52,374 nucleotides of DNA from Bryobacterales bacterium. Lineage in GTDB: Bacteria > Acidobacteriota > Terriglobia > Bryobacterales > Bryobacteraceae. A program made the position numbers and the translations under genes. The notes under the pieces were generated by a model, which saw only the letters and a list, made by a program, of their open reading frames with translations, was not told where the DNA came from and did no database searches. The stretch covers positions 3,000 through 55,373 of the forward strand of contig PMTR01000006.1 of the NCBI GenBank assembly GCA_003167255.1. The letters are read 5' to 3'. This document shows positions 1-4,057 of this stretch, in pieces. Numbering within the stretch: the stretch's first letter is position 1; each line of letters starts with the position of its first letter.

Positions 1-127
1 GCTGGCGTTTGCATGATGCCGATATCGCTGATCCGATTGCGGGACGAGGGCATCCCGCGCGGACTAAGGGGTCCGCCCTCCAATTATGCGTGCGCCACTT
101 GATTGGGCCATCTCTGAGAAAAGCAGG

Positions 128-964
128 TTAGTTCGGAGTCGGTTCCACGCTTGCGCGCTCCACCACCAGGGTTTTCTGCATCTGCTTTCCCGCCTCCAGC
201 TTCAAGCCAAGTTTCTTCGCAACGGCAAACCCTACGTTCGGATCGTCGCCAGGCCGGCCCGTTGTCGCGTGGCTCCAGTCCTCATCGAACTGGTAGCTTC
301 CAGTGATCCCGGTCTTATCAAAGACGGGGGTTCCCGTGAAAAACGTTAGAAAGCTTGCCAGGTCGGCGAGGGTCGCCGATTTCCTCCTGAAGACGCCCCG
401 TTGATAGGACACGGTGTTGGAATCCACTTCGGTTGACGGTATCAGTTTCGGCTCGCCGCTTCCCCGCAGCAGGTTACAGATGCGCTTTTCCCGATCCACC
501 AGTTTGCACTGAAGCCCGAGCCGATCGGCCAGCGCGGTTCGTAGCATCGCTCGCGCCGTCTCGTTGGTGGTCCCAACTGGCGCTATCGCCTCTATCTGGT
601 AAACCTCTTGCTCCATCCAAAAGGGTGATTCGAAGTAGTAGGGGTTCAGGAGAGGAGAATATGCGTATCGCAAGATCCTGTTCAGTATAGCTTCACCCGA
701 AAGTCTCACACCTCTGTAATTCAGAGGGCGCTCCTCTCTGAATTCCTGGTGGCCTATGCTACCCACAAGAACTGGTTCACCTACCTTAATGTTTCCAACG
801 TGCTTGAGCGAAACGACTTCAAACTGCGGCTCAGCAGGGGCCGCCGCGTGCGTCTGGGCGGTGCTATGCACGGCAAGGGCGAACAGGCACCAGCAAAGCA
901 TGGCAACTCTGAATGATGCGCACGCGGTGGAGGGGACCTGGGCCGGCACTGGCACGGAATTCAC
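128..964 (-). CDS. TIGR03435-type secreted protein
   Basis: A 278-residue protein with a hydrophobic signal segment at about residues 15-38, ending near TAQTHAAAPAEPQFEVVSLKH. The mature part has the layout typical of the TIGR03435 family: an opening FEVVSLKH-like strand, a RGVRLSGEAILNRILRYAY segment, then MLRTALADRLGLQCKLVDREKR, and a C-terminal D-x-T-G-I-T-G-S-Y-x-F-x-x-DW motif (DKTGITGSYQFDEDW). These proteins are expanded in Solibacter-like Acidobacteriota; their function is unknown and they are probably exported. It stands alone: the next gene is more than 450 bases away. The start is the first in-frame Met before the signal segment. Family assignment is from pattern recognition, not a search. 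Confidence 0.85.
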   Translation of the reverse strand: MNSVPVPAQVPSTACASFRVAMLCWCLFALAVHSTAQTHAAAPAEPQFEVVSLKHVGNIKVGEPVLVGSIGHQEFREERPLNYRGVRLSGEAILNRILRYAYSPLLNPYYFESPFWMEQEVYQIEAIAPVGTTNETARAMLRTALADRLGLQCKLVDREKRICNLLRGSGEPKLIPSTEVDSNTVSYQRGVFRRKSATLADLASFLTFFTGTPVFDKTGITGSYQFDEDWSHATTGRPGDDPNVGFAVAKKLGLKLEAGKQMQKTLVVERASVEPTPN

Positions 965-1072
965 AGGTCCGATTGTAACGCCTGGCCCGGCGGAATTCGG
1001 AATCCGGTAGGAGGCCGTTCCGAAATCGGGAGGACTGGCGCAGGCGGGCCTTTGCTATCAATTGATTCCATA

Positions 1073-1088
1073 TGGCACGCGGGTTGCA
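1073..1088 (+). promoter_or_regulatory. Sigma-54 (RpoN) promoter
   Basis: The 16 bases TGGCACGCGGGTTGCA match the -24/-12 consensus TGGCACG-N4-TTGCA without a mismatch. The GG doublet (1074-1075) and GC doublet (1086-1087) are separated by exactly 10 bases, as RNA polymerase with sigma-54 requires. The predicted start of transcription is near 1099. The DNA behind it is intergenic and ends in an intrinsic terminator before the hydrolase gene, so the promoter appears to drive a short non-coding transcript. Confidence 0.7.
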
Positions 1089-1098
1089 TAACAGTCCA

Positions 1099-1205
1099 TA
1101 AGGTTCTTTAGAGGATATTCTCACTTTGGTGCGTTGTTGCCTCTGTTCCGGCTCGACGCCGCCGCCCCGCCCGGTCCCATCTGCCGGAGCGGGGCGCTTT
1201 TTTTT
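1099..1205 (+). ncRNA. Candidate sigma-54-driven small RNA
   Basis: A transcript starting about 12 bases downstream of the -12 GC doublet would run to the T-run at 1198-1205, about 105 nt. It holds no open reading frame with a ribosome binding site. Its 3' end is a strong hairpin plus eight T. The size and architecture (regulated promoter, short unstructured 5' part, terminator hairpin) match trans-acting small RNAs. No known family is recognised. The 5' end is inferred from the promoter match only. Confidence 0.45.
1163..1205 (+). terminator. Intrinsic terminator of the candidate small RNA
   Basis: An 8-bp GC stem (1163-1170 with 1189-1196) is extended by CCGG/CCGG (1171-1174 with 1184-1187) with one bulged A. 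It is followed almost at once by eight T (1198-1205). This is a textbook Rho-independent terminator on the plus strand. Confidence 0.8.
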
Positions 1206-1274
1206 GGTCTGTTGCAGAGGGCCTTCGGCCCGCGAAATTTCATGAAAAACTGTGAGGACCCTGGCTGGTTGTGG

Positions 1275-1370
1275 GGCGGGTTATACAGCCTGGTTATACA
1301 GCCCGCGGACCGGCTTTCCAACGGGTCCAGCCGCCTGAAGGCGGCTGCGGCCAGAATTGGCCGCCCCACC
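1275..1370. repeat. Palindromic intergenic repeat cluster
   Basis: Between the terminator and the hydrolase gene lie two direct copies of GTTATACAGCC (1280-1290, 1293-1303). Two adjacent hairpins follow: AGCCGCC-TGAA-GGCGGCT (1329-1346) and GCGGCC-AGAATT-GGCCGC (1347-1364). A close relative of the first hairpin recurs at 50552-50569. This resembles REP-type elements spread between genes. No gene is seen here. Confidence 0.5.
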
Positions 1371-1423
1371 TCCGTCGGCGCCCTGCTTTTTCGACCCTGC
1401 TAAACTGAGATTTCTCACTACAA

Positions 1424-2458
1424 ATGGGACCCTATGCCTACTGGATGGATCGCTGGGAGCGGAAGCTCGCCACTCGGGACACCAACCGCGTGGTTCGTCC
1501 GTTTGAATGGGGCACCGAATGGCTGCACTCGATCGGCTTCCCGCCCTGCCCCGCGGAATCGAACGGCGATGCGGCTGCCTGTTTGGCCCGTTTCGCAACC
1601 GAAGCTGTCGCCCACTCCGAGCGCCTTTATTCCTACGTGCCGGTTCAGGATTTCCGGCTTCAGGAAGACCGGCTGACTTTTACCAGCCCGGTGGAATCCC
1701 CGTACCCAAAGAACAATACCGTCCACGCGCGATGGTTTCCCGCCGATCGGGACCGCGGCCGCGCCCTCGTCGTGCTGCCCCAGTGGAATTCCGGTCCCGA
1801 CGGACACGTGGGACTGGCAAAGCTGCTGAACCGGTTCGGAATCAGCGCACTGCGCATGACCATGGCGTACCACGCGGAACGCATGCCGGAGGAACTCTCC
1901 CGCGCCGATTACCACGTCTCGAGCAATATCGGGCGCACCATTCACGCCACCCGCCAATCCGTAATCGACGCCCGCGCCTGCCTGGACTGGCTGGCCCAAC
2001 AGGGCTACCAGCGAGTGGGGTTGTTGGGGACCAGTCTGGGTTCGTGCGTGGCCTTCGTCGCCGCCGCCCACGACCCGCGCGTGAAAGTGGGCATCTTCAA
2101 CCACGTATCCAACTACTTTTCGGACCCGGTCTGGACCGGAATATCGTCCCGGCACATCCGCAAGGGTTTCGGCGACATGCTGAGCCAGGACGATTTGCGG
2201 CATTACTGGTCGGTGATCAGCCCGGCCAGTTACCTGAAGCTCATCCAGGGCCGCGATATGCGCAACCTGCTGATCTGGGCCCGGCACGACTCGACTTTCC
2301 TACCGGTTTATTCCCGGCAAGTGCTCGCCAGCTTCCGGGAAATGCAGTTGCCGCATGAAGTTTTCACGCTGCCGTGCGGCCATTACACCACTGGCCGTTT
2401 TCCCTTCAACCTCATCGACGGCCTCGTGATGTGCCGTTTCGCCGCCCGCAACATGTAA
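1424..2458 (+). CDS. Alpha/beta hydrolase (ABHD18-like)
   Basis: A 344-residue alpha/beta-hydrolase-fold protein with no signal peptide, so probably cytoplasmic. The nucleophile elbow is GTSLGS at residues 202-207 (Ser204). The likely acid is Asp289 in WARHDS and the base is His320 in PCGHY. The central core (VLPQWNSGPDGHVGLAKLL, then RMTMAYHAERMPEEL) resembles the DUF2048/ABHD18 group, whose substrate is unknown. The ATG lacks a clear Shine-Dalgarno sequence. The gene is monocistronic, with a hairpin cluster upstream and a separate short transcription unit downstream. The substrate cannot be told from the sequence. Confidence 0.85.
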   Translation: MGPYAYWMDRWERKLATRDTNRVVRPFEWGTEWLHSIGFPPCPAESNGDAAACLARFATEAVAHSERLYSYVPVQDFRLQEDRLTFTSPVESPYPKNNTVHARWFPADRDRGRALVVLPQWNSGPDGHVGLAKLLNRFGISALRMTMAYHAERMPEELSRADYHVSSNIGRTIHATRQSVIDARACLDWLAQQGYQRVGLLGTSLGSCVAFVAAAHDPRVKVGIFNHVSNYFSDPVWTGISSRHIRKGFGDMLSQDDLRHYWSVISPASYLKLIQGRDMRNLLIWARHDSTFLPVYSRQVLASFREMQLPHEVFTLPCGHYTTGRFPFNLIDGLVMCRFAARNM

Positions 2459-2507
2459 CCCAAACATTACATGGCGCTTAGCGGCAGCCTTCCAAAAGAA
2501 TTTCATA

Positions 2508-2539
2508 TTGACAAGCCGAAATCCCCGTGAGAGCATGTA
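2508..2539 (+). promoter_or_regulatory. Possible sigma-70 promoter of the short transcript
   Basis: TTGACA (2508-2513) is a perfect -35 hexamer. The best -10 candidates nearby (around 2533-2539, CATGTAA) are weak and the spacing of 19-20 bases is long, so the exact start is uncertain. It lies just upstream of a strong ribosome binding site and structured region. Confidence 0.35.
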
Positions 2540-2571
2540 AACATCACTGGAAAAGGAGGTGGTCCAACATA

Positions 2572-2613
2572 ATGGAAAGTAACATACGACCGCGAGAGGT
2601 GGCCGACTGTTAA
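2572..2613 (+). CDS. 13-codon mini-ORF behind an extended Shine-Dalgarno
   Basis: ATG at 2572 opens a 13-codon frame (MESNIRPREVADC) that stops at TAA 2611-2613. Before it lies AAAGGAGGTGGTCC (2552-2565), complementary to the whole 14-base 3' tail of 16S rRNA except for one G-U pair. That is far more pairing than ordinary genes show. The stop codon sits in the loop of a stem formed by 2601-2607 and 2616-2623. It could be a leader peptide, a ribosome-loading site in a regulatory RNA, or a tiny gene. It is too short for coding statistics, so the call rests on the ribosome binding site. Confidence 0.35.
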   Translation: MESNIRPREVADC

Positions 2614-2722
2614 AGGTCGAGCCGATCATGTAGCCGATTCCGTCCAGTATCGGAATCAACGTTCCTGTGGACCGGCTGCCTCAAGCGTCAGCTTAAGCCT
2701 CAGGTTTTTTCTTTAGCTACCT

Positions 2723-2764
2723 CCCTCGTGGCCCGAAAGCGGGTCACGGGGGATTCGTCTTTTT
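2723..2764 (+). terminator. Hairpin terminator upstream of rpmE
   Basis: Arms 2723-2735 and 2740-2752 pair over 13 bp (two G-U pairs) around an AAAG loop. TTTTT follows at 2760-2764. It would end the short transcript and also lies where the -35 box of rpmE is expected. Confidence 0.55.
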
Positions 2765-2769
2765 AGTGG

Positions 2770-2775
2770 TATACT
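2770..2775 (+). promoter_or_regulatory. Likely -10 box of rpmE
   Basis: TATACT at 2770-2775 is a good -10 hexamer placed 30 bases before the rpmE ATG. No good -35 box is present, since that position is occupied by the hairpin. The leader would be about 25 nt and contains AAAGG (2786-2790) as ribosome binding site. Confidence 0.4.
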
Positions 2776-2805
2776 GAAAGTCTCGAAAGGAATCCCCGTA
2801 ACAAA

Positions 2806-3039
2806 ATGAAGGTCGGTATTCACCCCGCTTATAACGAATTGAATGTAATCTGCGCCTGCGGCCATACCTTCAAGACACGGTCGACGCACAAAGGCGATAT
2901 CCGCGTGGAAATCTGTTCTTCCTGCCACCCGTTCTACACCGGCAAGCAGAAGCTGATGGACACCGCCGGCCGCATCGACAAGTTTGAGAGAAAGTACAAG
3001 GAATCGCGCGCCGCCAAGAAGGCACAACCGGTGGCGTAA
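2806..3039 (+). CDS. rpmE: 50S ribosomal protein L31
   Basis: A 77-residue protein starting [20 protein letters not shown], the typical L31 opening. Four cysteines (Cys16, Cys18, Cys37, Cys40) form the zinc-binding C+ pattern, followed by [24 protein letters not shown], the conserved L31 core. It binds the 50S subunit near the central protuberance. The zinc-containing form is the one usually replaced by a C- paralogue when zinc is scarce; no such paralogue is in the window. The gene is monocistronic and closes with a strong terminator. Confidence 0.97.
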
Positions 3040-3067
3040 GCGCGGAAAACAAGTTTGGAAATGGCAA

Positions 3068-3099
3068 GGGGCCGGACGGTGTCCGGCCCCTTTGGTTTT
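3068..3099 (+). terminator. rpmE intrinsic terminator
   Basis: GGGGCCGGAC (3068-3077) and GTCCGGCCCC (3081-3090) form a perfect 10-bp stem with a GGT loop. It is followed by TTTGGTTTT. It lies 28 bases after the rpmE stop codon. Confidence 0.9.
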
Positions 3100-3119
3100 G
3101 TCCAGCTCGCATTTCTCCT

Positions 3120-3381
3120 CCAGAAGTTAAGGGGACGCATTTTCCAGCCTTCACTCGTCGCTGTCCCGGGTGAACCTGGAAATCGCGTCTCCTTTCGTTC
3201 TCGGCGCGCATACCTGCGAACATCCCGTCCATATCGGCGCCTGCCTGGTTGGTGTTGATCGGCAGCGTGGCGGGTATGCCCGGCATAATAGCGCGCGGGT
3301 CTTTTGCGGGGGGATCGGGAGCTGAAAGCTGACCGCTCGAATCGAATGCAGCCACGACGAGTTTGATACTCTTGCAGTCCG
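3120..3381 (-). other. Possible decayed coding remnant
   Basis: No intact gene fits this stretch, but the minus strand has an open frame with protein-like composition, including CKSIKLVVAAFDSSGQLS and TLPINTNQAGADMDGMFAG. It has no start, no ribosome binding site, and runs into the SnoaL-like gene in another frame. It may be the tail of a decayed secreted protein. Weak evidence. Confidence 0.2.
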
Positions 3382-3783
3382 CTAGCCGTGCACGGCGTGA
3401 GCGGCCTGGGCGGTGTCGGTGTACTGCTGGAAGGCCGTGATCTTGGCGTCGCGCAGGCGCCAGATGTGGGCGAATTGGGCGTTGAGAGGAGCGCCGGTCG
3501 CCTTGTAAGTGGCCTTGTAGTAGCCGAGCGCCACGACGGTGTCGCCGGCGTCTAGGAGCTCGGAGGGGAGGGCCTGGAAGTGATCCCATTCGGTGGCGAG
3601 ACGGAAGAAGATGCCCTCGGCAATGGCGGCATGGCCGACGTAGGGATTGCGGTCGGCGTAAGGGAAGTTCTCCGCTTCGTTCCAGACAATGGCGGGATCC
3701 ATGCTGGCGAGGACCGCTGCGCCGTCGCCACGGGCGAAGGCTGCGTAGAGGCTTTGGATGAGATCAATGTTCGCTTGGGACAT
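3382..3783 (-). CDS. SnoaL-like / nuclear transport factor 2 family protein
   Basis: A 133-residue protein starting MSQANIDLIQSLYAAFARGD, a standard opening of the SnoaL-like polyketide cyclase / NTF2-like fold. WRLRDAKITAFQQYTDT near the C-terminus is the usual closing strand of the family. The fold is a small alpha+beta barrel that binds hydrophobic ligands or catalyses isomerisation; the ligand cannot be told. The frame is open further upstream (to 3972), but the added residues look unlike the family, and GGAGA stands 9 bases before the chosen ATG. No operon partners. Confidence 0.85.
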   Translation of the reverse strand: MSQANIDLIQSLYAAFARGDGAAVLASMDPAIVWNEAENFPYADRNPYVGHAAIAEGIFFRLATEWDHFQALPSELLDAGDTVVALGYYKATYKATGAPLNAQFAHIWRLRDAKITAFQQYTDTAQAAHAVHG

Positions 3784-4057
3784 GGAAAGGGTCTCCGGTA
3801 CCTCGAAGCAGTATACAGGAAAACCATCCCTGTCGAATAACTGCCTCCTAATTGACGTTGTTCCACAGTGGACGTAGAGTCGCGGAGATGTGGCTCCATC
3901 CGGCGCTTGACCGGCTGTGCCTGACGGCGCACTCGGAAACTGCCGCATGCGGGTGTCACGAGCCAGGCCCATTGTGGGAAACTTGACCGCATCGGGAACG
4001 CGCCCGGCTTTGCCGATTGGGCTTCAGGACCGGCCTTTGCTGCGTTAGGTGGCGGCC

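Follow-up and report, generated by a model that had tools for sequence, protein, structure and literature searches.

A putative sigma-54-dependent small RNA and a homologous second RNA in one family of soil Acidobacteriota

Described systems and the locus

Several bacterial small RNAs, among them the Qrr RNAs of Vibrio and CrcZ/CrcY of Pseudomonas, are made by sigma-54 polymerase together with an enhancer-binding protein. The closest parallel to the present case is the enterobacterial pair GlmY and GlmZ, two homologous RNAs, with IHF acting at glmY. GlmY is a decoy RNA beside a second RNA that acts with the same protein, and its expression involves a sigma-54 promoter and activator sites (PMC6075780, PMC7073468). 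For Acidobacteriota, Weinberg et al. (2010, PMC2864571) list Solibacter-1, a candidate noncoding motif from Solibacter usitatus only, with a question mark as to its being an RNA and without an Rfam number, as well as the candidate RNAs Acido-1 and Acido-Lenti-1. Literature searches that included PMC3174227, and of which one sampled its subject thinly, brought up no account of a small RNA under sigma-54 control in this phylum.

The stretch of DNA analysed here (the window, 52,374 nucleotides) is part of contig C107 of a 7.35-Mb genome (G000). The close named relatives of one of its genes, the hydrolase gene described below, come from metagenome-assembled genomes of Bryobacterales, Solibacteraceae, Candidatus Solibacter and Candidatus Sulfopaludibacter, and the host is thus an acidobacterium. 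Positions 1099 to 1206 of the window very probably encode an independent small RNA that depends on sigma-54. By sequence comparison the promoter, enhancer-type sites, an IHF-type site, the RNA and its terminator are conserved together as one unit; from this arrangement we infer transcription of the RNA, an activator and a signal to which the activator would respond. A homologous RNA, here called RNA-2, is encoded elsewhere in the same genome.

The unit does not belong to a known Rfam family, since none reached its cut-off: with Rfam 15 no family attained the gathering score in the window, and 18 further loci gave only a tRNA. The best weak match in the region was sX13 of Xanthomonadaceae (RF02232; 21 bits, E 0.034, the gathering score being 50), in an alignment that spans the model and is best in the terminator. 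Acido-1 and Acido-Lenti-1, both of which are in Rfam, gave no match, and Solibacter-1 was set beside the small RNA by its table description. The locus differs from Qrr and CrcZ/CrcY in lacking an Rfam match and in belonging to another phylum. It resembles GlmY/GlmZ in that two homologous RNAs occur, one of them under predicted sigma-54 control, and differs from that pair in the absence of an Rfam match and in the position of the homologous RNA, which is usually beside dxr.

Conservation of the control region

The -24/-12 element TGGCACGCGGGTTGCA lies at 1073-1088 on the forward strand (TGGCACG-CGGG-TTGCA). Its GG (1074-1075) and GC (1086-1087) are separated by ten bases, exactly as the original prediction had it. 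The accompanying argument that nothing else explains a consensus RpoN promoter at this place does not hold for the string by itself: the exact pattern TGGCACNNNNNTTGCW occurs seven times in the 7.35-Mb genome and four times when the genome is read backwards, which is near the chance level. What raises the unit above chance is its conservation as a whole in relatives. One rpoN gene is present in the genome, by a single match to PF00309, the activator-interacting domain of RpoN; this model also matched 4 of 14 control genomes.

With the hydrolase gene (1424-2458) as query, 33 loci were collected; the upstream regions of 31 were examined, those of L054 and L063 being left out. The same RNA was recognised by eye and by its core pattern upstream of the hydrolase in 21 of the 31, or 22 loci with the window; among the ten without it, L032, L035 and L043 are close relatives and the other seven are more distant. 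Twenty-one of the RNAs, with the promoter excluded, were used to build a covariance model, R1. At E ≤ 0.1 it matched 175 of 200 genomes of the family, RNA-2 matches included, and many of these 200 genomes had no strong match to the small RNA. The better places, a part of all R1 matches, were fetched. From 82 matches, partial second matches on L070, L137 and L139 were removed; 16 of the remaining 79 were RNA-2, and of the other 63 we dropped L082, a duplicate of L081, and L167, a chance match to the terminator only. This left 61 small-RNA loci in 61 genomes and 32 genera of one acidobacterial family. One further member of the family, L241, which also has the promoter, stands outside this count.

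At E ≤ 0.1, R1 matched 85 of 297 genomes of the phylum, three of them in the family; 27 viewed loci of the other 82 genomes were mostly unrelated terminators. The core of L121 is similar, but the promoter spacing is missing there, and we regarded this match as chance. With a second model, R2, matches at E ≤ 0.001 were obtained in 78 of 329 genomes of the class; 24 of these genomes lie outside the family, and the core was absent from the six loci viewed among these 24.

The promoter could be followed through this set. TGG-N9-TGC is present in all 22 hydrolase loci that hold the RNA, the window included, and in all 22 the promoter and terminator keep a conserved spacing, with 94-112 nt between the predicted start and the last T of the run (L044 and L045 are identical there). 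GG-N10-GC was found no more than 45 nt upstream in all 21 loci used for R1 and, as the original prediction required of relatives, in 39 of the 40 loci outside the model, most often at 26 nt. Spacings of 7, 8, 9, 11, 12 or 13 occurred in 2-11 of the same 40 loci, and shuffled upstream regions gave GG-N10-GC in a mean of 7.7 of 40 and a maximum of 15. In an alignment anchored on the element, GG and GC are bound to be invariant; the T preceding GG (88%) and the T preceding GC (98%) were not required. L142 was the only one of the 61 loci in which the RNA is present without a proper -24/-12 element.

Further upstream are two putative enhancer-type palindromes on the forward strand, a distal one, ATTCGGAATCCGGTAG (UAS 1, 995-1010), and a proximal one, GTTCCGAAATCGGGAG (UAS 2, 1017-1032), centred at about -70 and -48 from the T of TGG. 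They are instances of the 16-bp motif CTACCGAATTCGGTAG, obtained by a de novo palindrome search in 60 upstream regions including that of the window. Its log-likelihood was 396, and eight shuffled sets (25 starts each, compared with 60) gave no more than 31. The positional counts cover these 60 loci, L142 being left out because it lacks a proper -24/-12 element. At a score of at least 8 the proximal centre lay between -50 and -46 in 52 of the 60, and a second copy was found in 41, either at -72 to -68 (21 loci) or at -83 to -78 (20 loci); three control bands contained no palindrome at score 8. The loci counted were also the source of the motif, though not of its position. The steps between the copies, approximately 22 and 32 bp, correspond to about two and three helical turns. 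The enhancer palindrome of GlmY is a different one.

Between the palindromes and the promoter lies an IHF-type site, TATCAATTGATTC (1056-1068, forward strand), which agrees with WATCAANNNNTTR at eight of nine fixed positions; its assignment to IHF is by consensus. At exactly -17 to -5, 45 of the 60 loci had at least seven of the nine positions, against 0-6 loci at twelve other offsets. The reading as a sigma-54 small RNA is supported by comparison, although the original prediction had overlooked the palindromes, the IHF-type site and the homologous RNA elsewhere in the genome.

These elements suggest how the RNA might be switched on. An enhancer-binding protein would occupy the two palindromes, at about -74 and -96 relative to the start; IHF, or a protein like it, would bend the DNA between them and the promoter, and sigma-54 polymerase would start at approximately 1099 and stop at the intrinsic terminator near 1205. 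Stimulation of the activator would then let the small RNA accumulate.

The PF00158 activator domain had 30 matches in the host genome, 24 of them above 150 bits; weak matches are unspecific, because the model also matched all 14 control genomes. None of the 24 genes had the enhancer motif paired with a -24/-12 element nearby. One sigma-54 activator domain match lies on the same contig at 55378-55782 (reverse strand of C107), five bases past the end of the window, and shows no sign of control over the small RNA.

The combined pattern CGAAWTCSG-N39-48-TGG-N9-TGCW was found once in the host genome and not at all in the control; the single match, at 1021-1088, is the promoter of the window. Searches with these patterns in the host genome and in sets of 121 and 237 genomes gave no convincing wider regulon. 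With one mismatch allowed, the palindrome had ten sites in the host genome against eight in the control, none of the ten convincing near a promoter. The perfect palindrome occurred at two places in 121 genomes of the family, at the small RNA of G076 and on contig C178 of G123, the latter with no good -24/-12 element nearby. Enhancer and promoter together matched 163 of 237 genomes, and far fewer in a reversed control of unmatched composition; among the matches listed, only those of G076 and G083 were recognised as the small RNA, and no other context recurred.

The RNA, its terminator and the neighbouring genes

From the predicted start the small RNA would extend for about 107 nt on the forward strand (1099-1206; covariance model match 1100-1204). 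Its conserved core (1111-1143) consists of GAGG (1111-1114) and CCUC (1140-1143) around CAC-UUUG-GUG and GUUG, so that a transcript would carry GAGG ... C-UUUG-G ... GUUG-CCUC. The core is followed by the intrinsic terminator that had been predicted (1163-1205), a GC-rich stem whose 5' arm begins at about 1163 and whose 3' arm ends at 1197, with a run of eight T behind it (1198-1205).

The RNA has a folding energy of -45.3 kcal/mol (200 shuffles, z -3.4), and the lowest-energy fold of the window's own sequence does not contain the conserved core hairpin. A terminator scan of positions 1-4000 gave five sites against a shuffle mean of 4.5, and an inverted-repeat search of 1150-1460 found none at the settings used, although the terminator lies there. 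In the terminator, 10 of 12 pairs were changed on both sides in 61 sequences, in a model-fitted alignment that leans towards the terminator, and seven of the same 12 when 21 sequences were aligned without such fitting. Compared as a whole with 500 shuffles, the named structure had four measures out of five that were never reached and a fifth that was reached once; slid controls were all lower. GAGG and CCUC are paired in 86% of the alignment cells with almost no covariation, and of the inner CGC/GUG pairs the two below the loop-closing one form in only 65%. Support for the core therefore comes from its conserved sequence and not from compensation. Conservation is high in CUUUGG and GUUGCCUC, with variable spacing between the two.

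It might be asked whether the conserved unit is instead a small-peptide gene, or merely DNA regulatory sequence for the divergent gene upstream; we regard this as highly improbable. In the window, as originally noted, no open frame fits between promoter and terminator: frames that start in the RNA (with ATG, GTG, TTG or CTG) all pass the end of the terminator and run on to 1245, 1255 or 1403. Closed frames within the RNA are absent from 28 of the 61 loci and are 1-21 amino acids long in the others. Similar ones, of 15-21 amino acids, are shared by a few close relatives, which would favour a peptide; no frame is common to all 61 loci, however, and the core spacing varies by lengths that are not multiples of three. 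With no common closed frame, and frames that overrun the terminator, a peptide gene was rejected. As regards regulatory DNA, a divergent gene of one cluster, identified as MFS by Pfam in the two members scanned, lies upstream in 49 of the 61 loci, and the enhancer might serve that gene too. Against both versions stands the covariation of the terminator pairs. In the window itself the divergent gene encodes a TIGR03435/DUF3738 protein.

Downstream of the RNA is the gene for an RcgR-like alpha/beta hydrolase (1424-2458, forward strand; NF047337, 194.6 bits with a cut-off of 182). The NCBIfam RcgR family, a putative quorum lactone hydrolase, owes its name to rhizobial plasmid transfer. A gene for ribosomal protein L31 follows at 2806-3039, and L31 also comes after the RNA in some loci without the hydrolase (L160).

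The position of the hydrolase gene raises the question of whether the RNA is its cis-acting leader, with the terminator attenuating transcription of the gene from the sigma-54 promoter. A hydrolase match on the same strand does begin 26-117 nt downstream of the RNA in 43 of the 61 loci, and 220 nt downstream in the window, and altogether the hydrolase follows the RNA in 44. In the remaining 17, however, it is missing from the available flank (1186-2018 nt) and the RNA is kept; the RNA precedes uvrD in L134 (L147 is alike by eye) and rpmE in L160. The hydrolase gene moreover has its own extended -10, TGCTAAACT (1398-1406, forward strand), past the terminator and kept in relatives: TANRCT, a -10-like sequence, stands no more than 50 nt from the gene in all 21 loci that have the RNA, and also in five of the ten that do not. 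In the window the two are separated by an insertion (1207 to approximately 1392), in part a dispersed repeat, which lies between the terminator and the hydrolase promoter, is not part of the unit and makes the spacer exceed that of the closest relative (L056 in G001) by about 190 nt. The first bases of this insertion match other places in the host genome, among the matches listed. Since the RNA is kept without the hydrolase, and the gene has a -10 of its own, the RNA is not simply a hydrolase leader; we rejected that role for it and consider attenuation improbable.

The homologous RNA-2 and possible modes of action

The second match of R1 in the host genome, on contig C15 (55479-55592, reverse strand; E 4.9e-6; 1980-2093 of locus L123), is RNA-2, which is structured, highly conserved and at least 100 nt long. 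It was also found at L124-L133 and other loci, in two tandem copies at L131. Both RNAs were read in nine of the 61 genomes (G000, G002, G008, G052, G069, G081, G082, G117 and G127). A gene of the dxr cluster, confirmed by Pfam in one case, adjoins RNA-2 in 26 of 28 loci. In six RNA-2 loci compared with Rfam, the RNA matched no family at E ≤ 1, and a model of RNA-2 itself matched three of 396 genomes of the phylum, all three in the family. RNA-2 is not 6S RNA, as the 6S-like match of the genome lies elsewhere (C93:18802-19001, reverse strand). That match, at 39.9 bits below its cut-off of 46.4, is possibly a divergent acidobacterial 6S RNA.

As judged from the sequences, the core of the small RNA is homologous to the middle and 3' part of RNA-2. 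An HMM of this core, with the terminator removed, matched 26 of 26 RNA-2 loci, with E values between 3.5e-7 and 0.0055, and not one of 130 block-shuffled sequences, in a test that was not blind, as nearly all of those loci had first been found via R1 or R2. In RNA-2 a preceding 5' arm closes the same core into a 10-bp helix with three compensated pairs, and a 27-nt core block is invariant across 25 sequences. Two of five measures for this helix were unfavourable or mixed, the compensated-pair count being reached by 8 of 500 shuffles and the pair types by 445. In the stretch scanned at 16 RNA-2 loci, GG-N10-GC was present in four, at 18, 18, 18 and 47 nt, and in none near the usual 26.

Two modes of action have to be weighed. 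In the first, the small RNA would compete with RNA-2 for a shared partner through the common core, as GlmY does for GlmZ. We favour such mimicry because the core is common to both RNAs and is held by RNA-2 in a closed helix, and because the small RNA is under predicted inducible control and RNA-2 shows no such promoter. Even so, a partner and a competition for it are put forward here by analogy and only tentatively.

In the second, which we rank slightly lower and regard as almost as likely, the conserved GUUGCCUCC of the sigma-54 small RNA would pair with Shine-Dalgarno regions (GGAGGCAAC) and block translation of target mRNAs. Conservation is higher in GUUGCCUC than in the GAGG strand with which it pairs, as would be expected of a seed, and a U-rich tail suits an RNA of the Hfq type. 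In RNA-2, however, the same strand lies within the 10-bp helix with its three compensated pairs, so that the common feature looks structural, and several changes in the loop, as far as can be judged by eye, retain a loop of the C(UUYG)G type. If antisense pairing were nevertheless correct, mRNAs with GGAGGCAA leaders would be common targets of the small RNA and RNA-2.

Mimicry of RNA-2 by the small RNA remains the preferred reading. Its fullest form, a two-RNA circuit in one acidobacterial family in which a shortened, sigma-54-inducible paralog mimics the core of RNA-2 and titrates a common partner, is rather less likely than not. RNA-2 supplies a concrete hypothesis for how the small RNA acts, and its role can be tested; with a control region that is fully legible, the activator, the signal and the partner should be within reach of ordinary genetics. 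Should the circuit prove real, this family would possess an independently evolved counterpart of GlmY/GlmZ, governed through a new enhancer-binding palindrome.
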